DNA of 64,000 bases. It comes from Kaistia hirudinis (lineage in GTDB: Bacteria > Pseudomonadota > Alphaproteobacteria > Rhizobiales > Kaistiaceae). The stretch lies in contig NZ_JACIDS010000005.1 of the NCBI RefSeq assembly GCF_014196455.1, positions 186,001-250,000 on the forward strand, given 5' to 3'. Shown piece by piece: positions 36,169 to 51,061 of the stretch (its first letter is position 1; every line of letters starts with the position of its first letter). The position numbers and the translations under genes are program-made. Below the pieces are notes generated by a model. It was not told the origin of the DNA. It saw only the letters and a list, made by a program, of their open reading frames with translations, and searched no databases.

Positions 36169-37908
36169 TCAGTTCGCCTGGCGGCGGAGGAAAGCCGGAA
36201 TCTCCAGCTGGTCATCCTCGTGCCGGGCCTCGCGCGGCATCACGCGGCCGTGCTGGTCCAGTTCCGCCTGCCGCCCGCGATAGGCCTGGTCCTGCGGCAT
36301 CGGAGCCTGGGGACGAACCGGAGCCGGCTGCTGCTGCCGCGGCGCCTGGGCCGGAGCCTGCGGCGGACGGACCTGCGTACGCGGACCGGTCTGCGGCTGC
36401 GGGTTGCCACGAGCGAGGGGCGGCTGCTGCGACTGGGCATCATCCTCGCGACGGCCGAGGCCGACATGTGCGAGGCGGCGCAGAAGGCTCATCGGGCCGC
36501 GGTCTTCCTCGTGCTGCTCCTCGCCGCGCGCGGCATGCATCTCGCGCTGGGCGACCACCGGGAAGTCCTCGACCCGCGGCATGCGGGCCGAACCGGGGGC
36601 TTCGGCAGCCGGCGGGATGAAGTGCTGCGGCGGCGCATGGTCTTCGACCGGAGCGTGCTGCGGCACCATGCCGAAGTCATGATCGAGCTCGGCCTCGGCA
36701 TAGGAGACCGGAGCCTGCGGGGCCATCGGGGCGATGGTCACGCCGGGATCGCGGACCGAGGGCTGGCTCGGCACGGCCTGACGCAGCGGCTGGGCCGGGG
36801 CCTGCCCCCGCATCTCGGTGTTGACCGCCGGAATTCTCGACTGCGGCTGAGGCTGCGCCTGTACCGCCGCCTGCGCAGCCGCCTTCATACGCTGGTTAAG
36901 CTCGGCGATGCGCTGGTCATTAGGGTTTTCGACGGCTTGAACCTCGCTGTCGATGCCGGTCGCGACGACCGAGACGCGGATGACGCCCTCGAGGCTCTCC
37001 TCGAACGTTGCGCCGAGGATGATGTTGGCGTCCGGATCCACTTCCTCGCGGATGCGGGTGGCCGCCTCGTCGACCTCGAACAGGGTCAGATCGCGACCGC
37101 CCGTGATCGAGATCAGCAGGCCGCGCGCACCGTGCATCGACGTCTCGTCGAGCAGCGGATTGGCGATCGCCGCCTCGGCGGCCATGATCGCGCGCCGGTC
37201 GCCCGACGCCTCGCCCGTGCCCATCATCGCCTTGCCCATCTCGCGCATCACCGAACGGACGTCGGCGAAGTCGAGATTGATCAGGCCTTCCTTGACCATC
37301 AGGTCGGTGATGCAAGCGACGCCCGAATACAGCACCTGGTCGGCCATGGAGAAGGCGTCCGCGAAGGTCGTCTTCTCGTTGGCGATACGGAACAGGTTCT
37401 GGTTCGGAATGACGATGAGCGTGTCGACGCTCTCCTGCAGTTCCTGGATTCCAGCCTCGGCGACGCGCATGCGGCGCGCACCTTCGAACTGGAACGGCTT
37501 CGTCACCACGCCGACGGTCAGAATCCCGTGCGAACGGGCCGTGCGTGCGATGACCGGGGCCGCGCCCGTTCCCGTGCCACCACCCATACCGGCGGTGACG
37601 AAGACCATGTGGGAGCCGGCGAGGTGATCATTGATCTCGTCGATCACCTCCTCGGCGGCCGCACGGCCGATTTCGGGCATGGAGCCCGCACCGAGACCCT
37701 CGGTGACGGCAACACCCATCTGGATGAGCCGTTCGGCTCGCGAAGACATGAGCGCCTGGCTATCGGTGTTGGCGCAGACAAACTCCACGCCCTCGAGGCC
37801 CGATCGGATCATGTTGTTGACGGCGTTGCCACCCGCGCCGCCGACCCCGAAGACCGTGATCTTGGGCTTCAGCTCAGTAATGTCCGGCATCTTCAGGTTG
37901 ATCGTCAT
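36169..37908 (-). CDS. ftsZ: Cell division GTPase FtsZ
   Basis: This 579-residue tubulin homologue polymerises into the Z ring. The nucleotide site is [13 protein letters not shown] (21-33) and the tubulin signature GGGTGTG is at 109-115. The T7-loop catalytic aspartates are in [11 protein letters not shown]. The globular core ends at about residue 320. After it lies an unusually long (about 240 residues) Gln/Pro/Arg-rich linker, then the C-terminal peptide [10 protein letters not shown] that binds FtsA and other partners. Long linkers are a known alphaproteobacterial feature. ATG 37908 has GAGG upstream. It lies 100 bases downstream of ftsA and ends the dcw run before a terminator. Confidence 0.97.
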
Positions 37909-38008
37909 GGTACCCTCGTCGTCTAGACCCCTACTGCCGGTGGCGGATACCGGCATCGCTTTCTACGCTTGGGGGCGCTGAGCCGCCGACGCCCCGCCTT
38001 TCGGCGAC

Positions 38009-39331
38009 TTAGAAACTCTCCCGGAACCAATGTCCGAACCGGGAGAAGACGCCCCCCGTTCCGGTCATTGCCAGTCTGTGCCCGCGGATCGCCGTGACCT
38101 GTTCGATCTGAGCGACCTGCGGATAGATCAAAAGCCCGACCGCCGCCGAGAAGGCCGGCCCCTTGGCCGCCTCCGGCATGCCGGTCACACCGAGCGGCCG
38201 GCCGAGACGGACGCTGCGCGCCAGGATGCGGCGCGCCGCCTCGGTGAGGCCGGTGAGCTGGCTGGCCCCGCCCGTCAGCACGATCCGGCGGCCGACCATG
38301 GTCTGGAAGCCGGAAGCATTGAGGCGGTCGCGCACCAGTTCGAGGATCTCCTCGGTGCGGGCGCGGATGATGCGGGTCAGCGCCGAGCGCGGCAGCTGGT
38401 TCGGAATATCGCGGTCGTCATCGCCGATCGGCAGGACCGAGAGGATGTCGCGCTCGTCGGAAACGCTCGGCAGCGCGCTGCCATGCATCGTCTTGAGCCG
38501 CTCGGCATCCTCGATCCTGGTCGAAAGACCACGAGCAATATCGGTCGTCACATGCTGGCCGCCGATGGCGAGCGCGTCGGCATGGACGAACTGGCCGTCC
38601 ATGAAGACGGAGATCGTCGTCGTGCCGCCGCCGAGATCGACGCAGGCGACGCCGAGCTCGGTCTCGTCCTCGACGAGGGCCGCGAGACCGCTCGCATAGG
38701 GCGTCGCGACCATCGCCTCGACCTGCAGATGGCAGCGGGCGATGCAGAGCTCGAGATTGCGCAGCGGCGCGGCCTCGCCCGTCACGACATGCATGTCCAC
38801 GCCGAGCCGTTCGCCGAGCATGCCGCGCGGATCGCGGATGCCGCCATTGCCGTCGATCGAATAGCCGATCGGCAGCGAGTGCAGCACCGAGCGCTCCGGC
38901 GTCACCGAATGCTCACGGCCGGCCGCGAGCACGCGGCGAATATCGGTCTCGACGATCTCGTGCCCGCCGAGCGCCACGGAGGCGGAATAGGCCTCGCTCG
39001 CGATCCGGCCGCAGGAGACGTTGACGATCAGCGATTCGACGGTCACGCCGGCCATGCGCTCGGCGGCGTCGACGGCGAGACGGATCGCCTGCTCGGCCTG
39101 GTCGAGATCGACGACCACGCCGGACTTCACGCCGCGCGAGCGCTGGTGGCCGATGCCGATCACCTCGACCGCATGGGTGCGGCCGGGAAGCACGTCGCCG
39201 AGCTCACGCGGCTTCAACCGTGCGATCAGGCAGCAGATCTTGGACGAGCCGACATCGAGGATCGAAACGATGCTCGACTTGCGGGTCGGGAGGGCGCGGA
39301 CGCGGCTGTCGGAAGCGACGAAGAGCGGCAT
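38009..39331 (-). CDS. ftsA: Cell division protein FtsA
   Basis: This 440-residue actin-like ATPase tethers FtsZ to the membrane. Phosphate-1 is ILDVGSSKICCLIARL, the SHS2 (1C) domain lies at about 100-180, and phosphate-2 is CVDLGGGTTTISVFMDGQ. The adenosine motif is IVLTGGASQLTGL. The C-terminus FSRFGHWFRESF is the amphipathic membrane-targeting helix. Its start codon overlaps the ftsQ stop by one base, which implies coupled translation. The N-terminal 20 residues before SIVSILDVG are variable. Confidence 0.97.
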   Translation of the reverse strand: MPLFVASDSRVRALPTRKSSIVSILDVGSSKICCLIARLKPRELGDVLPGRTHAVEVIGIGHQRSRGVKSGVVVDLDQAEQAIRLAVDAAERMAGVTVESLIVNVSCGRIASEAYSASVALGGHEIVETDIRRVLAAGREHSVTPERSVLHSLPIGYSIDGNGGIRDPRGMLGERLGVDMHVVTGEAAPLRNLELCIARCHLQVEAMVATPYASGLAALVEDETELGVACVDLGGGTTTISVFMDGQFVHADALAIGGQHVTTDIARGLSTRIEDAERLKTMHGSALPSVSDERDILSVLPIGDDDRDIPNQLPRSALTRIIRARTEEILELVRDRLNASGFQTMVGRRIVLTGGASQLTGLTEAARRILARSVRLGRPLGVTGMPEAAKGPAFSAAVGLLIYPQVAQIEQVTAIRGHRLAMTGTGGVFSRFGHWFRESF

Positions 39332-40212
39332 CAGGTGCTGGCTCCCTTCCGCTTGGCGAGCTTTTCCTGCTCCTTGATCGCCGCGAGGCGACGTGCGGCG
39401 GCATCGGGCGTGAGGCGGACATACATCCGGTCGCCGAGGCGCAGATCGACGACGACGATGTCCTTCGAGAGCAGATCCTTGCCCGAATCGAACGCGGCGA
39501 CGCGATCGAGCGCGGCCTTGGGCTGTTCCTCGGGCAGCATGATCGTCACGCCATTGTCGAGCACGAGATCCCAGCGGCGCTCGGAGACGAGAACGGCCGC
39601 GCGCAGCCGGTCCCGAATCGCCGGATAGGCATCGACGAGGGCCAGCGCCTCGTCCGCCCGCGTATCGGCGCCCTTACCGACGAGACGCAGCAGCTTGCCA
39701 TAGGAGCCGTTGGCGGCGCCGATTACGCGGCCCGACGCGTCGATCACCGAGAGGTTCTGATCGTGCTGCCAGACGGCGAAGGGAACGCGCTCGTCGATCG
39801 TGATCTTGAGTGTGGAGGGATAGATCTTGCGCAGGCTCGCCTGCTGCACCCAGGGCAGCGTCTCGATGCGCTCGCGGGCGGCATCGACATCGACGAAGGG
39901 CAGCGACGCGTCGGGCTGCAGCTGCAGCTTGTCGAGCACGGCGACCTCGGAGGTCTCCATCTGGCCGGAGATCCGGACATTGTCGACGACGAGACCCGTG
40001 GCACGGCTGAAATCGCTGACGACCTCGTCCACCCGGCCGGCCGAAACGATTCCGGCCACCGCCGTGGCGCCGAAGAGCAGGACGAGCCCCTTGGTGCCGG
40101 CATAGGGAGGCAGGCGCCATTCGATGCGGCCCACGACCTTCATGCGACGACGCAGCCACGAGGCGAGCCTCGAGGGCGCCGCCGCAGCCGAAGCCGCGAC
40201 CCCTTCACCCAT
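39331..40212 (-). CDS. ftsQ: Cell division protein FtsQ
   Basis: This 293-residue bitopic divisome protein has a basic cytoplasmic N-terminus (about 1-35) and a single transmembrane helix (about 38-56, GLVLLFGATAVAGIVSAG). A POTRA domain follows (VVDNVRISGQMETSEVAVLDKL) and then the beta domain (LPWVQQASLRKIYPSTLKITIDER). It links FtsL/FtsB to the late divisome. ATG 40212 is chosen because AAAGGG lies just upstream; the open frame runs further into ddl but without FtsQ-like sequence. It starts 20 bases after ddl. No ftsB gene lies in the cluster. Confidence 0.93.
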   Translation of the reverse strand: MGEGVAASAAAAPSRLASWLRRRMKVVGRIEWRLPPYAGTKGLVLLFGATAVAGIVSAGRVDEVVSDFSRATGLVVDNVRISGQMETSEVAVLDKLQLQPDASLPFVDVDAARERIETLPWVQQASLRKIYPSTLKITIDERVPFAVWQHDQNLSVIDASGRVIGAANGSYGKLLRLVGKGADTRADEALALVDAYPAIRDRLRAAVLVSERRWDLVLDNGVTIMLPEEQPKAALDRVAAFDSGKDLLSKDIVVVDLRLGDRMYVRLTPDAAARRLAAIKEQEKLAKRKGAST

Positions 40213-40232
40213 CTGACCCTTTGCCCGTCGGC

Positions 40233-41156
40233 TTATCTGCCGCACGATGCGTCCTCCACCATCCAGCTCACCAGCGCCGGGAAATCGATCCCGGCATGTC
40301 TCGCCATATCCGGGACCAGCGACGTTGCCGTCATGCCCGGTTGGGTATTCACTTCGAGGCACACCAACTGCCCGGTGCCCCCCGGCCGATCGTCGTATCG
40401 GAAGTCCGCCCGGCTGATGCCGCGACACCCGAGAGCGCGATGGGCCCTCACCGCCAGATTCCGTACATTTTGGTAAACATCTGGTAAAAGCGGCGCAGGA
40501 ATTACGTGCTTTGCACCGTTGTCGGAATATTTGGCGTCGTAGTCGTACCAGCCGCCGTCATCCGTCACGAGCTCAATGATATCAAAGGCTTCGTCGCCTT
40601 TTACGCCGCATGTGAGCTCGCGTCCGCCCACATATCGCTCGACCATGACGGTCTCGCCATAGCGCCAATCGTCAGCAAATAGTTGCTGCGGCGGGTGCGT
40701 CGCCCCCTCCCGCACGATCAGCACGCCGAAGGACGAGCCCTCCGCGACGGGCTTCACCACATAAGGCGGCTCCATCGGATGGGCCTTGGCGACGTCGAGG
40801 CGGTGCATGAGGAGCGATTCCGCGACCGGTATGCCCGCCGCCTTCATCACGTCCTTGGCCCGCGCCTTGTTCATGGCGAGCGCCGAGGCGAGGACGCCGG
40901 AATGCGTATAGGGAATGCCGAGCACCTCGAGGATGCCCTGGATGCAGCCATCTTCCCCATAGGGACCGTGCAACGCGTTGAACGCCACATCGGGCCGCAG
41001 CTGCGCGAGCACCTCCGCGACGTCGCGCTGGACGTCCACCCGCGTCACGCGATAGCCCGCCGCCTCGAGCGCATCCGCGCATCCTTTGCCGGAATTGAGC
41101 GATACCGGACGCTCGCTCGACCAGCCGCCCATCAGGACGGCGACGTGCTTCGCCAA
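40233..41156 (-). CDS. ddl: D-alanine--D-alanine ligase
   Basis: This 307-residue ATP-grasp enzyme makes D-Ala-D-Ala, the MurF substrate. Conserved elements are VLMGGWSSERPVSLNSG, NALHGPYGEDGCIQG, PYVVKPVAEGSSFGV and the metal-binding ADFRYDD...CLEVNTQPGMT. The start is TTG at 41156, with GAGGAAG 5 bases upstream; no ATG or GTG fits better. In most Hyphomicrobiales ddl follows murB directly. Here 3.9 kb with an autotransporter intervenes, so this gene must rely on its own promoter in 41157-41270. Confidence 0.95.
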   Translation of the reverse strand: MAKHVAVLMGGWSSERPVSLNSGKGCADALEAAGYRVTRVDVQRDVAEVLAQLRPDVAFNALHGPYGEDGCIQGILEVLGIPYTHSGVLASALAMNKARAKDVMKAAGIPVAESLLMHRLDVAKAHPMEPPYVVKPVAEGSSFGVLIVREGATHPPQQLFADDWRYGETVMVERYVGGRELTCGVKGDEAFDIIELVTDDGGWYDYDAKYSDNGAKHVIPAPLLPDVYQNVRNLAVRAHRALGCRGISRADFRYDDRPGGTGQLVCLEVNTQPGMTATSLVPDMARHAGIDFPALVSWMVEDASCGR

Positions 41157-41271
41157 GGTGCTTCCTCTTCGTCGAATCGAATTCGCTGCAATATGTCAGG
41201 GAAGACGAAAGGAAGCGTTAACCAGACAGCGCCCACCGGCGGGACAAATTGACTCGGGGGGAAGCACGAAA

Positions 41272-41300
41272 CGGAAACGGCCCGTCAAGGGCGGGCCGTC
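41272..41300 (-). terminator. Terminator after the autotransporter gene
   Basis: ACGGCCCG (41277-41284) pairs with CGGGCCGT (41292-41299), and the minus-strand continuation is TTCCGTTTC, a modest U tract. It follows the autotransporter stop by about 25 bases and should reduce read-through into ddl. Confidence 0.7.
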
Positions 41301-41324
41301 CGTCGATGTGAAGGCCGTCAGAAC

Positions 41325-44300
41325 TCAGAAGTTCAGCAGACCCGTCAACTTGACCGCGTTGGAATCCGCGTTGTCGGCGAAGGAGCCGGCATAGGTGAAG
41401 CCGAGGCTGAACCGCTGATTGAGGGCGAAATCCGCGCCCGCTTCGACGAGGAGCGAATCCTGCGCGATCGGCGTGCCGGCGACCGTGAAGCCGGTCCCCG
41501 TGTTCTCGAACAGCATGGCCGCTTCCGGCGGGACATCGCTGAAGGCGTGACGCCAGCCGAGCATGCCGCGCGGCGTGACCTTGATGCCTTTGGCGACGAA
41601 GTCGGCCGAGAGGCGCACGCCCAGCGTCGAATAGGCGGTGTCATAGGAGACGCCGCTCGAAGCGAGACCGGTGAGCGGCGCATTGGTCTCGGCGAAGTCC
41701 TCCGAGTCCACATTCACCCAGCCAAGGCCGGCATAGGGCTCGATCACCGAACCGCCGAGCGCCGCATCATAGGCGACCTCACCGAAGACGTTGCCGGTCG
41801 TGGCGTTATAGGAGGCCTGCGGCGTCTCGACGATGCCGTTGACCATGGCCATGCGGCTCGTGTCGATATTGCTCCAGGCCATCGACGCACCGCCGCGCAG
41901 CTTGGTGGCATCGAATGCGACGCCGCCATACAGCGCGAGCAGCGCGGTCTCGATATCGGCCGAGCCGGACCATTTCGACGTATTCGTCGAGCCCCAGCTG
42001 TAGCCGCCGGCAAGACCGAGCGTGTAGTTGTCGTTGGTGAGGTCTGCGCCGGCCATCAGCCCGCCGACGCTCGAATCGGTGGCGGACGCATTGCCGTCGC
42101 TGTCGCGATTGAGCCAGGAGCCGAAGCCCTGCGCCCAGCCGGCATAACGCGGGCCGCTGTTCTGGAGCGCGTCGAACGCCGCGGTCGAGGGCTTGTTCTC
42201 TTCGCCATAGCCGAGCTTCTGGCTCGGCGCGGCGGCACCCTTGGCCGGCGTGCCGACCTGGCGCAGGCGCTGGAGCAGCGTGAGTTCCGTCTGCGTCGCC
42301 TGATCGAGCAGCGTGCCGGCGAGATCGGCATGAACTTCGCCCGAGAGCGAATCATAGGCGTCGGCGAGACCGGCGCTGGTCGTGCTGCTCACGATCTGGC
42401 TGTACAGCGCGCTGCCCGCCGGAGCCTTGTCGAGCCCGTTGGCGACGGCACGCTGGTTGGCAGTCTGAGCGAAGCTCGCGAAGGGCACGCCATTGCGGTC
42501 GAGCGAGATCGTGACGCTGTTCGCGGTCATCCCCAGCGTCGGGGTGATGAAGGTGAAGCTCGGCGCGTCGAGCGCGGCAAAGCCGGACCCGCTCACACCG
42601 CCTGCGGCCGTGACGATCGTCGCCTTCGTGCCGACGACATAGGGCCCCGGCGCGAGATCCAGCACGACCGTACCGCCATTGATCGCGGCGGTGCCGGCCA
42701 CGGCAAGCTGGTTCGAAGCGCCATTGGCGGCCATGCCGACCTTCATCGTCGCGCCGTCGAGATAGGCATTGCCATTGACCGTGAGCGCGCCGCTGGAGCC
42801 ATTGCCGGGCACGATCACGGCGCCGACGCTGGTCGTTACCAGCCCCGACACGCTGCCGCCGCCTGAAAGCGTGGCACCGCCCTCGACCATCGTCACCGCG
42901 GCAAGCCGCGTGTTCACGTCGAGCGCGGCGCCGGAATAGACCGTGACGCCATCCGAATAGGACTGGTCGTCGCCGAGCGCCCATTGACCGGCGCGAACGC
43001 CGAGCGTCTCGAAATTCGTCGCGCCACGGAGGGTGGAGACGCCGCTGGCCGTGGACCAAAGGTCCAGAGCGTCGAAACCGGTGCCGCCATCGATGCCGTC
43101 GAAGGACGAACCGCTGTAGCCGTCGCCTTCCGTGAGCGAAGCCACGTCATCGCCGGCCCCGAGGTCGACATGACCGCCGATCGGACCGAAATTCGCGAAG
43201 AGGTCGTTGCCGATCCCCGTGGAGACGTTTCCGCCGATCGAGCCGAAATTCATCAGGACGTTATGGCCCCAGAGAGCGCCCGTCAGCGTGACGTCTCCGT
43301 CGATCGATCCGCCATTGCTGATCTGCACACCATAGCCTTCGGAGACAACGCTGCCGCCGATCCAACCGAGGTTTTGGAGGTTGCCGCCTTTTGCAAGATC
43401 GACATTGCCGCTGATATCGCCATCGTTCATGAGGTAGCCGGAATAGGACGGCTCCATGGCGACGTTGCCATCGATCGCGCCGTAATTCTCCAGCCACGAC
43501 GAGCCAGCGACGTCGCCGAAAATCCAGCCCGTATTGCGAAGCAGATCCTGCCCCGAGCCCTTGTCGATATCGCCGTCGCCGGCACCCATATCGATGTCGC
43601 CAACGATCACGCCCGAATTCGTGATCGTGTCGGCGAAGTTCCCGCGCAGCGTGATCGCCTGGCCCGAGCCGCTGAAGATCACCCCCGAATTGACGATGCT
43701 GGTCGCGCCATAGGCTGAGCCGCCCTCGCTGTCGTCGACGAGGATGCCGCGCTGGACGCTGTAGATCAGCCCGTCATTCGTGATGCTGCCGCCGCCGATC
43801 GAGATCGCATCCGAGATATTGGGATCGTCGGGATTGCCGTCCTTGTCGCCGACGGCGCCGAGCCCCAGGATCGCGCCATGGTTCTCGATGTTGGCGAGGT
43901 AGTCGATATCGACACCGTCACCGTCGGCGTTGGCATGCACGGGATCAGAGGTATCGAGCGCGGCCCCGGCGATGACGCCGTAATTGACGACATGCGCCGT
44001 CGACAGCGCTGCGATCTGCTCCGGCGTGGCGCCATCCGGAATGTCGAAATTGATGCCTGAGCCATTGCGGCCAAGGATGAGACCATCGGCATAATTCGTG
44101 ATCTCAAACGCCGTCGCGCCGGTATCACCGGTGATGCCGTGCTTGGCCGCCTCGACAGTACCGTAATTGTAGACCGTGCCGGCACCGGCCGACTGGAAAT
44201 CGATGCCGTCGCCCCGATCCCACTCCGTGCCGGTCCAGACGCCGTCATTCATCGACTGGATGGTACCGTAGTTCGTGATCGTGGCGTTGCCACCCGGCCG

Positions 44301-44822
44301 CACGACGTCCGACGTGCCGTTGGCTTCGATGACGCCGAAATTGTTGATCGTCACCGTCCCGCCGAGCGCCGGATTGAAGTCGAGCGCCTGCCCGTCGGTC
44401 GTTGAGCGGATCGTCCCGTAATTGTCGAGCAGGATGGTGCCGCCGCCCAGCGCGCGGTTGATGCCGATGGCGTCGTCCGTGCCCTCGATCAGCGCGCCCG
44501 ACCGGTTGGTCAGCGTCAGCGAGAACGAGCCCGAAGAGCCGCTCGTGCGAATGGCTCGTCCGTTCGTCGACGAGATCGTCCCGGAATTGTCGACCGTCAG
44601 ACTGGCATTCGCGCTCGACAGCACGACGGAGGGACTGGACGACGTCGTGATCGCGCCGCCGGCATCGACCGTGAGCTTGTTGGTGCCCGAAATCGTCTGC
44701 TGCGTGGTGAGGGTCGTTCCACTGGGAACGGTGATATCGACGGCGAAAGCGGCGGGCGAAACGACAATGGCCGTGGCGGCGAGCAGCACGCGGCGGCGTG
44801 CCTGCGCGGAAACGAAATGCAT
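41325..44822 (-). CDS. Type V secretion autotransporter
   Basis: This 1165-residue surface or secreted protein begins with a signal peptide (about 1-27, MHFVSAQARRRVLLAATAIV then SPAAFA). The passenger (about 28-800) consists of irregular beta-helix repeats of the form ITNYGTI, VNSGVI, ISNGGSI and LENYGAI. It has few cysteines and many Asn-Gly and Asp residues. A linker (ANQRAVANGLDKAPAGSALY) precedes the C-terminal beta-barrel domain of about 270 residues. The barrel ends in LTGLLNF with the required terminal phenylalanine. No protease triad is seen, so adhesion is more likely than proteolysis. It is inserted between murB and ddl and has its own terminator. Start choice: MHFVSAQ gives a compact signal peptide. 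Confidence 0.9.
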   Translation of the reverse strand: MHFVSAQARRRVLLAATAIVVSPAAFAVDITVPSGTTLTTQQTISGTNKLTVDAGGAITTSSSPSVVLSSANASLTVDNSGTISSTNGRAIRTSGSSGSFSLTLTNRSGALIEGTDDAIGINRALGGGTILLDNYGTIRSTTDGQALDFNPALGGTVTINNFGVIEANGTSDVVRPGGNATITNYGTIQSMNDGVWTGTEWDRGDGIDFQSAGAGTVYNYGTVEAAKHGITGDTGATAFEITNYADGLILGRNGSGINFDIPDGATPEQIAALSTAHVVNYGVIAGAALDTSDPVHANADGDGVDIDYLANIENHGAILGLGAVGDKDGNPDDPNISDAISIGGGSITNDGLIYSVQRGILVDDSEGGSAYGATSIVNSGVIFSGSGQAITLRGNFADTITNSGVIVGDIDMGAGDGDIDKGSGQDLLRNTGWIFGDVAGSSWLENYGAIDGNVAMEPSYSGYLMNDGDISGNVDLAKGGNLQNLGWIGGSVVSEGYGVQISNGGSIDGDVTLTGALWGHNVLMNFGSIGGNVSTGIGNDLFANFGPIGGHVDLGAGDDVASLTEGDGYSGSSFDGIDGGTGFDALDLWSTASGVSTLRGATNFETLGVRAGQWALGDDQSYSDGVTVYSGAALDVNTRLAAVTMVEGGATLSGGGSVSGLVTTSVGAVIVPGNGSSGALTVNGNAYLDGATMKVGMAANGASNQLAVAGTAAINGGTVVLDLAPGPYVVGTKATIVTAAGGVSGSGFAALDAPSFTFITPTLGMTANSVTISLDRNGVPFASFAQTANQRAVANGLDKAPAGSALYSQIVSSTTSAGLADAYDSLSGEVHADLAGTLLDQATQTELTLLQRLRQVGTPAKGAAAPSQKLGYGEENKPSTAAFDALQNSGPRYAGWAQGFGSWLNRDSDGNASATDSSVGGLMAGADLTNDNYTLGLAGGYSWGSTNTSKWSGSADIETALLALYGGVAFDATKLRGGASMAWSNIDTSRMAMVNGIVETPQASYNATTGNVFGEVAYDAALGGSVIEPYAGLGWVNVDSEDFAETNAPLTGLASSGVSYDTAYSTLGVRLSADFVAKGIKVTPRGMLGWRHAFSDVPPEAAMLFENTGTGFTVAGTPIAQDSLLVEAGADFALNQRFSLGFTYAGSFADNADSNAVKLTGLLNF

Positions 44823-45019
44823 GAAGGAGCCCCGATCTTCAAATGGTGACCGAGAGCTAGGGGCTCCATATGACAGCTGGTTGACGGCCAACCGCGGTCA
44901 AGCGCACACGCTGATCTTGAGAAATCGCTGGATTCCGCGAGATGCGGAGCTCCTGGAGCCGCGGATCGGCGCTCGCGCGCACCATCACGGCGAGCACTGT
45001 TGCCGCTGCGCAACGATTT

Positions 45020-45960
45020 CTATGCCCCCAGGAACGGCTCCACGGTCTCTCCCGGAAGCGGAATCCCGAGGCGCTTGATCTCCCAGTCGAGACGGATGCC
45101 GCTGGTTGCCAGCACCCGCGCGCGCACCGTCTCGCCGAGCAGTTCGAGATCATGCGCCGTGGCGCTGCCGGTATTGATCAGGAAATTGCAGTGCATTTCG
45201 GACACCTGCGCGCCGCCGATCATGAGGCCGCGGCAACCGGCTGCGTCGACCAGCTTCCAGGCCGAATGGCCGGGTGGATTCTTGAAGGTCGAGCCGCCCG
45301 TCTTTTCGCGGATCGGCTGCGCCCGCTCGCGATGCGCCTCGACCTCGTCCATCGCCGCGCGGATCGTCGCCGGGTCGGCAGGCTCGCCCTGATAGACCGC
45401 GTCGACGAAGATGAGGTCGTCGGGTGCGGCTGTGTGGCGATAGGTGAACCCCATCTCGGCATTGGAGAGCGTCACGCGGCGGCCACTCCGGTCGATCGCC
45501 GTGACTTCGACCAGCCGCTCGCGCGTCTCGCCGCCATTGGCCCCCGCATTCATCCTGAGCGCACCGCCGATGCCGCCGGGAATGCCGTGGTAGAAGGCGA
45601 AGCCCGAAAGCCCCTGCTCCAGCGCGAAGGCGGCGACGCGCTTGTCCGGCAGCGCCGCGCCGACACGGATGCGATCACCGGGCAGACGAGTCGCGGCGCC
45701 GAACCCCTTGGCGGAAAGGCGGATGACCACCCCCTCGATGCCGCCGTCGCGCACGAGCAGGTTGGAGCCGACGCCGATCACCAAGACCGGTACGCTCTCC
45801 GGCAGGCGCTGCAGGAACAGTGCGAGATCATCGGCATCAGCGGGCTGGAAGAGCGCCTGCGCGGGGCCACCGACCCGGAACCACGTCACAGCGTCCAAAC
45901 CGAAATTCGGCGTCACGCGACCCCGGATGCCGTCGAGATCGAGGTCGAGCGCTGGAAAGC

Positions 45961-45964
<4 letters not shown>
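45020..45964 (-). CDS. murB: UDP-N-acetylenolpyruvoylglucosamine reductase
   Basis: This 314-residue FAD enzyme reduces the enolpyruvyl group to the lactyl ether of UDP-MurNAc using NADPH. The FAD-binding stretch is [17 protein letters not shown], followed by [29 protein letters not shown]. The substrate-site serine lies in [10 protein letters not shown], and the C-terminal glutamate is in the [12 protein letters not shown] region. The start is GTG at 45964, overlapping the murC stop by 4 bases (GTGA). It is the last gene of the Mur run before the inserted autotransporter. Confidence 0.96.
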
Positions 45965-47369
<1,405 letters not shown>

Positions 47370-47373
<4 letters not shown>

Positions 47374-48482
47374 GAGGATTCTCCAGGAGATAGGCCGGCG
47401 GCCACGCGCTCGACGAGGTCGGCGAGGCGCGCATCCGCATCGGGGCGCCCCACCGATCGCGCGGCAAGCGCCGCCTGTTCGAGACGGGCCGGCTCGGCCA
47501 GGAAGGCGGTGAGTTCGCGGGCGAGCCGGTCGGCGGTCAGTTCCGCCTGCGGCACGATCCAGCCGCCGCCGGCCGAGGCGAGGACGCGGGCATTGGCGCT
47601 CTGGTCCTGGTCGATGGCGTGCGGCAGCGGCACCATGATCGCGGGGCGGCCGATGACGGCGAGCTCGCAGACGGTCGAGGCGCCGGAGCGCGAGACGACG
47701 AGTTGGCTCGCCGCGATGCGGGCCGGCAGATCGCGGAAGAAAGGCGCGAGCTCGGCGGAAACCTTAAGCGCTGCATAGGCTTGCGTGACGCGGGCCATGT
47801 CCTCGGGCCGGCATTGCTGCACGATCGAGAGCCGCGCGCGCACCGAAGGTTCCAGCTTGCCGAGCGCCTCGGGCAGGAGGTCGGAGAAGAAGCGCGCGCC
47901 CTGGCTGCCGCCGAAGACGACGAGATGCAGCGGCGCTCCATCCACGAGGGGCACGAAGGGCACGGCGCTCGCCGCGACGACGGCGCTGCGCACCGGATTG
48001 CCGGTCTGGACCACGATCGCCCGGCCGCCGCCATTGGCGACATCGGGGAACGAGGTGGCGAGGACACGCGCCCGCTTGGCGAGCAGTCGGTTGGCACGGC
48101 CCAGCACCGCGTTCGCGTCATGCACGATGGTGGGGATGCCGAGATGGGCGGCAGCGAGCATCGGCGGCACGGTCGGATAGCCGCCGAAGCCGACGACGAC
48201 CCTGGGTCCGATCCTCGCCATCAGCGCGCGCGCCTGCCAGTAACCCTCCCAGAGGCTCCAGCCGGCCTTGGCCATCACCAGCGGCGACTTCACCGAGGGC
48301 GTCGCCGAGCGGATGATGTGGGTTGCCGCAGCCGGGAAGTCCTGGCCATAGGCTTCGACGCGATGATCGGTGGCGAGCTCGACCCGCCAGCCGCGGGCGA
48401 TCAGCGCATGTGCCAGCGCTTCGGCGGGGAAGAGATGGCCGCCGGTGCCGCCGGCGCAGACGAGGACAGTGCCGCGGCTCAC
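47370..48482 (-). CDS. murG: Lipid II synthase (UDP-GlcNAc:undecaprenyl-PP-MurNAc-pentapeptide transferase)
   Basis: This 370-residue peripheral membrane GT-B glycosyltransferase converts lipid I to lipid II. The N-terminal G loop is [16 protein letters not shown] (about 9-24), with conserved [16 protein letters not shown]. The donor-binding C-domain contains [16 protein letters not shown] and [37 protein letters not shown]. The start is GTG at 48482, directly adjoining the ftsW stop. Its end overlaps murC by 4 bases. Confidence 0.97.
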
Positions 48483-49661
48483 TCAGACGGCTCCGGCCTT
48501 GGGCGTCGGCAGGCGATCCGCCGGGAACGCCGAGAAGCCCGTCGTCAGGCGGACGGGCTCATAGCGGCGGCGCGTCAGCGCCAGCACGAGACCCATCTGG
48601 AAGGCGAGCGCCAGCATGGACGAGCCGCCATAGGAGATGAAGGGCAGCGTCATGCCCTTGGCCGGCATCAGGTTGAGGTTCACCGACATGTTGATGCCGG
48701 ACTGGACGCCGAACAGCACGATCAGCCCGGCCGAGGCGATGCGCACGAAGGCGTCCTCGTTGCGCAAGCTATGGGCAAGGCCGCGGATGACGACGAAGGC
48801 GAACAGCATCACCAGCAGGATGCAGAAGATCACGCCGAACTCTTCCGCGCCGACAGCGAAGATGAAGTCGGTATGGCTGTCCGGCAGGATGCGCTTCACC
48901 AGCCCCTCGCCGGGGCCGCGTCCCAGAAGGCCGCCATTGCGGATCGATTCGAGCGCGGTGTCGACCTGGAACGTGTCGCCGCCGGCGCCGGGATCGAGGA
49001 AGCGGTTGATGCGGCTCGCGAAATGCGGAAACACCGTATAGGCGGCGACGACGCCGCCCGCGGCCAGCACCGCCAGCGCGCCGATCCAGTACCAGGAGAG
49101 GCCGGCCATGAAGAACACGACGGCCCAGGAGACGACCACCAGCATGGTCTGGCCGAGGTCGGGCTGCGCCACCAAGAGCGACACGACGATGCCGAGCAGC
49201 AGCACGCCGAAGATGTTGCCGGGAATGTCGCTGCGGCGGGTGTTCTCGGTGAACAGCCAGGCACAGAGCACGACGAAGGCCGGCTTCATGAATTCGGATG
49301 GCTGCAGCGAGAAGCCGATCACATTGATCCAGCGTCGGGCGCCCTTCACTTCCTGACCGATGAACAGCGTCGCGAACATCAGCACGATCGAGACGACGAA
49401 CACGATCAGCGCGACGCGGCGCACGTCACGCGGCGAGAGCAGCGAGGTGGCGATCAGGATGGCGATGGCGGGGATCAGGAAGGCGACATGGCGTTCCACG
49501 AAATGGAAGCTGTCGAGGCCGATGCGCTCGGCGACCGGCGGACTTCCGGCCAGCGACAGCACCACGCCGATCAGCATCAGGCCGATCACCCCGGCGAGAA
49601 GAAACTTGTCGACCGTCCACCACCATTCCGCGAAGACACCGCGATCGGCCCTGCTGACCAT
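48483..49661 (-). CDS. ftsW: SEDS-family peptidoglycan polymerase FtsW
   Basis: This 392-residue polytopic protein (about ten helices) polymerises lipid II at the septum with FtsI. SEDS landmarks are GQEVKGARRWINVIGFSLQPSEFMKPAFV, PDLGQTMLVVVSWAVVFFMAG and FIFAVGAEEFGVIFCILLV. The C-terminal LMPAKGMTLPFISYGGSSMLAL is also present. The catalytic-type aspartate is in the extracellular loop GPGEGLVKRILPDSHTDFIFA. ATG 49661 overlaps the murD stop in TGATG, with GAGG 7 bases upstream; a GTG one codon earlier is possible. Confidence 0.96.
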   Translation of the reverse strand: MVSRADRGVFAEWWWTVDKFLLAGVIGLMLIGVVLSLAGSPPVAERIGLDSFHFVERHVAFLIPAIAILIATSLLSPRDVRRVALIVFVVSIVLMFATLFIGQEVKGARRWINVIGFSLQPSEFMKPAFVVLCAWLFTENTRRSDIPGNIFGVLLLGIVVSLLVAQPDLGQTMLVVVSWAVVFFMAGLSWYWIGALAVLAAGGVVAAYTVFPHFASRINRFLDPGAGGDTFQVDTALESIRNGGLLGRGPGEGLVKRILPDSHTDFIFAVGAEEFGVIFCILLVMLFAFVVIRGLAHSLRNEDAFVRIASAGLIVLFGVQSGINMSVNLNLMPAKGMTLPFISYGGSSMLALAFQMGLVLALTRRRYEPVRLTTGFSAFPADRLPTPKAGAV

Positions 49662-51061
49662 CACCTGACCTCCTCGATTGACGAGCTCGGCTGCAGCGCG
49701 CGGACGAGCGAACGGAAATGGTCACCGCGCTTCTCGAAATTGCGATACTGGTCGAAGGAAGCGCAGGCCGGCGACAAGAGCACCACCGGCATCGGCGCCG
49801 GATCCTCGGCCGCGTCGCGCGCGGCGGCGATGACCGCGGCCTCCATGGTGCCGACGATCGCGTAGGGAACCTTGCCCTCGAGCGTCTCGGCGAAGGTCTC
49901 GGCGGCGACGCCGATCAGATAGGCCTTGGCGATCTTGGGGAAATACGGCGCGAGGCTGGTGATCCCGCCGGTCTTCGGCTTGCCGCCGGCGATCCAGTAG
50001 ATCCGGTCGAAGCTCGCGAGCGCCTTCTCGGCGGCATCCGCATTGGTCGCCTTGGAATCGTTGACGAACAGCACCTTGCCGATCGTTGCGACCTCTTCCA
50101 TGCGATGGGCGAGGCCGGGGAAGCTCTTGAGCCCCTTAATGATCGTCAGCTCGGAAATGCCGATCGCCATGGCGGCGGCAATCGCCGTCGCCGCGTTCTG
50201 GGCGTTGTGCGTCCCGCGCAGCGAGCCGATGCCTTTGAGATCGACGATCTTGCGCGAGGTGGCGTCGTCCGCCTCATAGATGATGCCGCGGTCGGCGTAA
50301 TAGCCGTCGGCCACCGGACGCCGCACGGAGATGCGTTCCAGCGTCTTGCCGGCCCGATCCAGCTCCGCGGCGATCGCGGCCGACCAGCTGTCGTCGATGC
50401 CGACGATCGCCGTATCCGCGCCGCGAACCAGCTTGGCCTTGATCGCGGCATAGCGCTCCATCGACCCGTGCCGGTCGAGATGGTCTTCCGTCACATTGAG
50501 CAGCACGCCGACGGTCGGATCGAGGGTCGGGGCGAGATCGATCTGGAAGGAGGAGCACTCGATGACATAGACGCGGTCGTCGTCGAGCGGATCGAGGGAC
50601 AGGACCGCCGGGCCGAAATTGCCGCCGATCTGGACGTCGCGGCCGGCGACACGCAGCAGATGCGCGACGAGCGCCGTGGTGGTCGACTTGCCATTGGTGC
50701 CGGTGATCGCGATGAAGCGCGTTTTCGGCGCGACGGCACGGCGCTCGCGGCAGAACAGCTCGATATCGCCGATGATCGGGATCCGGGCCGCCTTGGCCTT
50801 CTCCACCGTCCAATGGGGCTTGGGATGGGTGAGCGGAACGCCGGGCGCCAGCACCAGCGCCTCGAACTCATGAAAATCCGCCTGCTTCAGATCGACGGTC
50901 GGCACGCCGGCCAGGGCGGCGGCCGCGACGGAATCGACATTGTCGTCGAACGCCGAGACCGCGGCGCCGCCGGCGACGAGCGCCTTCGCCGTGGCGATGC
51001 CACTGCCGCCGAGGCCAAAGACCGCGACCTTCTTGCCGGCGAATGTGGTGACGGGAATCAT
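49661..51061 (-). CDS. murD: UDP-N-acetylmuramoyl-L-alanine--D-glutamate ligase
   Basis: This 466-residue ligase adds D-Glu to UDP-MurNAc-L-Ala. The N-domain motif is [16 protein letters not shown], the ATP loop is [21 protein letters not shown], and [23 protein letters not shown] is the family-specific central segment. C-domain residues include [22 protein letters not shown]. It lies 9 bases downstream of mraY and overlaps ftsW by one base. Confidence 0.97.

Follow-up and report, generated by a model that had tools for sequence, protein, structure and literature searches.

In Rhodobacter sphaeroides, ddlA-ftsA constitutes a separate operon bound by NtrX, in which ddlA has its own promoter (PMC7240162, PMC9275681), and a site of the form GCA-N9-TGC has been predicted for NtrX upstream of ddlA (PMC7240162). 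CtrA targets ftsAKQZ in Hyphomonas and potentially targets ftsQA in Caulobacter; its consensus is given as TTAA-N7-TTAAC (PMC7200025) or, in another account, as TAA-N7-TTAAC with a weaker TAA-N7-TTACT version (PMC3616915); these four papers are cited, here and in the comparisons below, from excerpts. Here, we analysed a stretch of 64,000 nucleotides from Kaistia hirudinis (NCBI RefSeq assembly GCF_014196455.1, genome of 5.26 Mb; contig NZ_JACIDS010000005.1, positions 186,001 to 250,000; hereafter the window), in which an autotransporter (AT) gene interrupts the division and cell wall (dcw) cluster between murB and ddl. The reading that we prefer, to which we assign a probability of roughly 0.75, is that the murB-ddl junction is the boundary between two dcw transcription units and a tolerated place of insertion, and that the AT gene entered it upstream of the ddl promoter.

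The first line of evidence is that the murB-ddl junction is variable far beyond this genome. The comparison covered 14 genomes of the genus (that of the window, G000, included), 14 other genomes of the family (28 in all; G codes denote genomes and L codes loci) and a named set made up of the 80 ddl matches that ranked best. Three of these (L092-L094) duplicate family genomes and were removed before junction lengths were compared; the titles of the remaining 77 identify nearly all of them as Hyphomicrobiales. Junction lengths were measured from murD to ftsZ, with ftsQ being detected in few loci by the search used. The murB-ddl gap is longer than 500 bp at 27 of the 71 named loci, at 7 of 10 loci from the family's other genera and at 4 of the 7 genus loci having murB; since the named loci are mutually related, their gaps do not count as independent events. 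At the remaining junctions in these named loci, gaps of this size occur in 0/65, 0/64, 0/68, 1/68 (murC-murB), 0/10 (ddl-ftsQ), 1/10 (ftsQ-ftsA) and 0/75 cases; in the family set, the murC-murB gap exceeds 500 bp in 3/12. The ORFs (open reading frames) found in 33 gaps of 600-8000 bp belong to many families, named by eye: MFS-like transporters (15), aquaporin-like (10) and GGDEF-like (4) proteins, and many singletons. The usual occupant in the family is a VapBC pair (L070:5113-5759; L074, L075, L078, L081, L082 and L088), identified with Pfam as PIN plus PSK_trans_fac in G011 and as PIN plus MazE-type in G025, with similar pairs (recognised from sequence or by eye) in G014, G015, G017, G019 and G020 and, in part, in G018. 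In G003, two further divergent genes, LysR-like (303 aa) and metallo-hydrolase-like (an ORF of 299 aa), lie between the AT gene and ddl (L062:5263-7052; by eye), and in G016, G026 and G027 murB and ddl are only 9-204 bp apart. Because the occupants of the slot are so diverse, the AT is one cargo among many, and it looks like a lineage-limited occupant, at the level of the genus, of a site at which insertions recur, that is, of a tolerated boundary between transcription units, and not like the sign of a role in division. The initial annotation had held that the same gene order in many related genera would reveal an old and ordinary arrangement; this AT at this place was found in Kaistia only (6/14), whereas the split between murB and ddl is itself common among the relatives compared. 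No paper on insertions at murB-ddl, on an AT in the dcw cluster or on displacement or replacement of murB within a genus was among the literature matches listed, in which subscription journals were thinly covered.

The surroundings of this junction hold further irregularities. In G020, murC and murB are separated by a HepT-like/nucleotidyltransferase pair (L082:6883-7559, Pfam), and in G017 by a similar one (L078:1763-2475, by eye). In G024 (L087), murB is followed by ftsQ at ~300 bp, and the genome, which is 92 percent complete, has no ddl match at E 1e-60. The murB-ddl distance reaches 18.5 and 15.3 kb in G021 and G023 (L083, L084, L086), with transporter and other genes between; G021 has no murC within 4 kb past murB, and the stretch from G023 reaches only 0.9 kb past murB.

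The second line of evidence is a conserved element, TGGTTAACG, which lies 66-131 bases upstream of ddl in all 14 genus genomes, whatever gene precedes it. This box has the form TTAA-N7-TTAC in 13 of them and TTAA-N7-TTTC in the window. A strict version, GGTTAACGnnTCnTTACC, is present at ddl in 8 of the 14 genus genomes, and these account for eight of its nine matches in the 14 whole genomes. Mononucleotide shuffles of ddl upstream regions contained TTAA-N7-TTA[AC] in 0.4 percent of cases. Among 12 other family loci, three have the N7 form, seven a palindromic form with six bases between (by eye) and two neither. With CtrA-controlled promoters, as far as the excerpts describe them, the Kaistia box shares the spacing and the first half-site, and it differs from them in the second half-site, TTAC (TTTC in the window). 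We infer that the box is a promoter element with CtrA as its candidate reader. An NtrX-type alternative was rejected, as GCA-N9-TGC is not enriched within 300 bp of ddl (1/14 genus genomes, not that of the window, and 6/103 loci; shuffles 8 percent). Kaistia ddl would thus resemble its R. sphaeroides counterpart, as excerpted, in appearing to be the first gene of a separate unit preceded by a conserved element, and would differ in that this element is CtrA-box-like, not NtrX-type, and in that the slot before it holds cargo.

The features of the locus in the window are listed below in the order of transcription. The seven proteins run against Pfam (AT, ddl, murB, murC, ftsQ, ftsA and ftsZ) all had their identities confirmed.

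49661-51061, minus strand: murD, an ORF named by eye
48483-49664, minus strand: ftsW, an ORF named by eye
47370-48482, minus strand: murG, an ORF named by eye
45961-47373, minus strand: murC (ORF and Pfam)
45020-45964, minus strand: murB of the NF010480 type, the upstream border of the slot (ORF and Pfam)
44823-45019, minus strand: spacer of 197 bp between murB and the AT gene
41325-44822, minus strand: AT gene, 1165 aa (ORF and Pfam)
41277-41299, minus strand: terminator-like hairpin 3' of the AT gene, with an 8-bp stem, a 7-nt loop and a T-rich tail
41206-41224, minus strand: conserved box before ddl, TGGTTAACGCTTCCTTTCG in the window, CtrA-box-like
40233-41156, minus strand: ddl, D-Ala-D-Ala ligase, with a TTG start, the downstream border of the slot (ORF and Pfam)
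ORF to 40428, minus strand: ftsQ, which together with ftsA spans 38009-40428, downstream of ddl (ORF and Pfam)
38009-39331, minus strand: ftsA (ORF and Pfam)
36169-37956, minus strand: ftsZ (ORF and Pfam)

The murB-ddl interval measures 3863 bp and contains one large ORF on the same strand, so that ORFs and Pfam agree with the initial annotation that a single AT breaks the run. Its statement that all other junctions overlap by 1-4 bases has to be corrected: murG and ftsW abut, ftsA and ftsZ are separated by ~50 bp, and the longest ORF for ftsQ extends 196 bp into ddl, its start probably being over-extended.

Terminator-like hairpins, scored by a criterion of our own that was satisfied in 1-6 percent of shuffles (for G003, the first 300 bases after the AT gene were considered), occur ahead of ddl, after the last gene upstream of it, in 10 of the 14 genus genomes. 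They are present in all six genomes with the AT gene and, when the genus is divided into the two clades described below, in 4/4 clade B and 0/4 clade A genomes without it. The hairpin in the window folds at -21.6 kcal/mol (z -2.6), in line with the terminator after the AT gene that had been noticed before. The same annotation had held that the insertion must separate ddl-ftsQAZ from the mur genes, and here the evidence points the other way: the box is kept before ddl in 14/14 genomes with or without the AT gene, AT-less clade B genomes have hairpins as well, and the corresponding operon of R. sphaeroides is a separate one, which together argue that the break between the mur genes and ddl-ftsQAZ is most likely older than the AT insertion. 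In clade A, where no AT-less genome has a hairpin, the hairpin of the AT gene may add insulation. The proposal that the AT had come under division-linked expression through the ddl box is rejected from the position and direction of the box, which lies downstream of the AT gene, on the ddl side, so that nothing puts the AT gene under this element.

How the AT gene itself may be transcribed is a separate matter. No terminator was found between murB and the AT gene in the three clade A genomes concerned (0/3), and the upstream regions of G000, G002 and G003 align no better than shuffles, which gives no conserved AT promoter; only a 13-nt stretch is common to the upstream regions of G000 and G004 (2/200 shuffles as good). 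With no terminator and dissimilar spacers, read-through from the mur genes and an own, unrecognised promoter are both possible. The AT gene could accordingly be regarded as the distal cistron of the mur operon, tied to envelope growth, being co-transcribed with murC-murB and its product exported as new wall is made. It does lie on the same strand as the mur genes and adjoins them in both clades, even where murB has been lost, and the combination of no preceding terminator in clade A with a hairpin after it in 6/6 genomes would suit such an arrangement. However, the spacer of 197-228 bp has no conserved sequence in clade A, the AT gene is missing in 8/14 genus genomes in which the run is otherwise retained, and unrelated genes occupy the same slot in relatives, and we consider this arrangement improbable. 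In the relatives examined, the murB-ddl junction is the part of the murD-ftsZ stretch that most often tolerates foreign genes. If it is instead a boundary between two transcription units, as we prefer, the AT gene would be transcribed from its own promoter or by mur read-through, with transcription stopping at a terminator of its own ahead of the promoter of ddl-ftsQAZ.

Intact orthologues of the AT (at least 50 percent identity) lie beside ddl in 6 of the 14 genus genomes, in the order murB-AT-ddl in G000, G002 and G003 and in the order murC-AT-ddl, without murB, in G004, G005 and G008; in the other eight, which retain the rest of the run, the AT gene is missing at ddl. Misassembly, raised as a concern in the initial annotation, is excluded because the same arrangement recurs in other assemblies, and with six of them agreeing and all having an open AT frame, we give an artefact or a chance ORF practically no credence. 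In the other 14 family genomes, the sole AT match at E 1e-70 is in G027; it is 38 percent identical and lies on a contig different from that of ddl. The 80 best named ddl loci gave no AT match at E 1e-10 within the stretches compared (73/80 show both murB and ddl), an order-wide search of whole genomes for the AT not having been made. A species tree of seven dcw proteins, built from 14 genus and 6 outside loci, unites every murB-less genome in a single clade (clade B) with an ultrafast bootstrap of 100, and joins the rest (clade A) at 74. The AT tree comprises 24 of 26 AT ORFs, L009 and L022 having been dropped as the picked ORF gave no match; in it, the barrels of these ATs form one clade apart from the other ATs of these genomes (SH-like 0.996), which splits into A and B as the species clades do. 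The simple history on the species tree is one AT gain and three losses, although two gains are also compatible; the common ancestor of the genus, as sampled, would probably have had the AT gene, with several later losses. The public record of G011 (L092, JAFKFV010000007.1) is labelled Bosea sp.; it groups with Kaistia here.

It should be noted that several observations weigh against the reading that we prefer. Within clade A, the AT subtree, (G002,G003) then G000, conflicts with the species tree. The flanks of the AT gene differ by clade: the hairpin follows directly after the AT gene in one, whereas a shared intergenic element comes first in the other (by eye). Together with the presence of AT-less genomes in both clades, this different ordering of AT stop, hairpin and element would also fit two independent insertions of the same AT family, or transfer between species by recombination through conserved flanks. 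We regard such histories as unlikely, given that the A/B split of the AT tree agrees with that of the species clades, that the whole AT proteins align across the clades at 53 percent identity, and that the arrival of the same family twice at one slot would be an extra coincidence. No AT remnants above shuffle level were detected in the gaps of the seven AT-less genomes compared (G001, G006, G007, G009, G010, G012 and G013, out of eight; G011 was left out). By eye, G013 has a candidate scar, in which TTCTGA precedes the element found after the AT stop in G004; its score against the AT 3' end was 18, not above the shuffle maximum of 23-25, and it was dismissed. As regards transcription, a standard terminator scanner did not list the hairpin at 41277-41299, the AT-less G006, G009, G011 and G012 have no terminator between murB and ddl, and a sigma-70-type scan of 41100-45100 returned 0 promoter-like sites (shuffles mean 0.7). 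As regards the box, TTAA-N7-TTA[AC] within 250 bp upstream of ddl is present in 23 of 103 loci, 13 of the 14 genus genomes among them, and hence absent from most of the wider set, so that the box alone does not explain the hot spot. The same motif was found before murD, ftsW, murG, murC, murB, ftsA and ftsZ in 0 of 72-105 loci each, but these regions are mostly coding sequence of the preceding gene and form a weak control, which means that the contrast with the other dcw genes is not a clean one.

The AT has its best start at the ATG at 44822. Its barrel matches PF03797 at residues 896-1144 (E 4.3e-58; 197.5 bits against a cut-off of 26), its C-terminal residue is Phe, and its N-terminus is by eye signal-peptide-like, with an Arg-rich start and a hydrophobic stretch ending in AFA. 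All six orthologues matched PF03797 and no other Pfam domain; the passenger matched no Pfam family, and the AT alignment found no relative among PDB sequences at E 0.001. In a structural model based on the six-sequence alignment, the passenger is a beta-helix of repeated short strands over residues ~30-776, with a predicted local distance difference test (pLDDT) score of mostly 70-97, and the barrel region (778-1165) has a pLDDT below 50. The best Foldseek matches of this model are the autotransporters Ssp (8e7f) and antigen 43 (7koh), at E 8e-6 and with low TM-scores of 0.14-0.29. Judged by its domains and this model, the AT is a classical (type Va) autotransporter, with a beta-helix passenger and a barrel on one polypeptide. 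With other members of this class (PF03797 / TIGR01414; Ssp, antigen 43), it shares the C-terminal barrel, the beta-helix passenger and the C-terminal Phe; unlike them, it is encoded inside the dcw cluster has a passenger without a Pfam family and, as an alignment, matches no PDB sequence. It is probably a beta-helix surface protein acting as an adhesin, a function that we only infer, because the model fails on the barrel and the TM-scores are low. A serine protease autotransporter was considered and rejected: there is no Pfam peptidase, and the NCBIfam EprS model covers only residues 611-1159, with 233 bits against a cut-off of 1700. Tandem Repeats Finder (TRF) found no tandem repeats in the AT DNA; by eye, clade A passengers contain a ladder of ~20-residue repeats, varying in number, which is absent in clade B. 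The genome of the window has seven PF03797 matches in total.

In clade B, a second change has affected the same cluster. The cluster murB is missing in 7 of the 14 genus genomes, which are those of clade B (L060, L063, L064, L066, L067, L069 and L072); three of these seven carry the AT gene between murC and ddl, and in the four AT-less ones (G001, G007, G010 and G013) no murB remnant above shuffle level was found in the cluster. Exactly these seven of the 28 family genomes encode a different MurB of ~336 residues (L172-L178). The copy of G001, the one tested, scores 427 bits on NF000755 (cut-off 277), and the other six share 79-84 percent identity with it; for the cluster MurB, the scores are 74 bits on NF000755 and 390 on NF010480, and the PDB matches of the two MurB types differ likewise. 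NF000755 is the model of what we take to be the E. coli type (type I) of MurB. The type I murB adjoins a pirin-like gene in 7/7 and a chloride-channel-like gene in 6/7 genomes (names by eye); in the genome of the window, the interval between the pirin-like and chloride-channel-like genes holds another gene, Rieske-oxygenase-like by eye. In terms of gene content, clade B appears to have cleanly exchanged an essential murB for a distant enzyme type, all within one genus. Separately, G012 encodes a second MurB-like protein of 352 aa (L044:1357-2415), 34 percent identical to the cluster MurB and located among glycan-type genes (by eye), and keeps the cluster murB.

A more far-reaching interpretation would be that murB-ddl is, throughout the Hyphomicrobiales, a conserved insertion harbour in an essential cluster that is closed at its other junctions, with a terminator to one side and a cell-cycle (CtrA-type) ddl-ftsQAZ promoter to the other, and that in Kaistia the arrival of an AT cargo carried along by mur transcription and the exchange of the adjacent, essential murB for a type I enzyme encoded elsewhere would be linked steps in a dismantling of the cluster. 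We put this forward as a speculation with a small chance of being right.

In summary, the most useful outcomes of this analysis are the location of the insertion point, the conserved ddl element and the replacement of murB. The first locates where the famously conserved dcw cluster can break, namely at an apparent boundary between transcription units that keeps its downstream element. The start of ddl in Kaistia bears on whether ddl-ftsQAZ is under cell-cycle control in this genus, and the swap of murB appears to provide a natural case, within one genus, of an essential wall gene being replaced.

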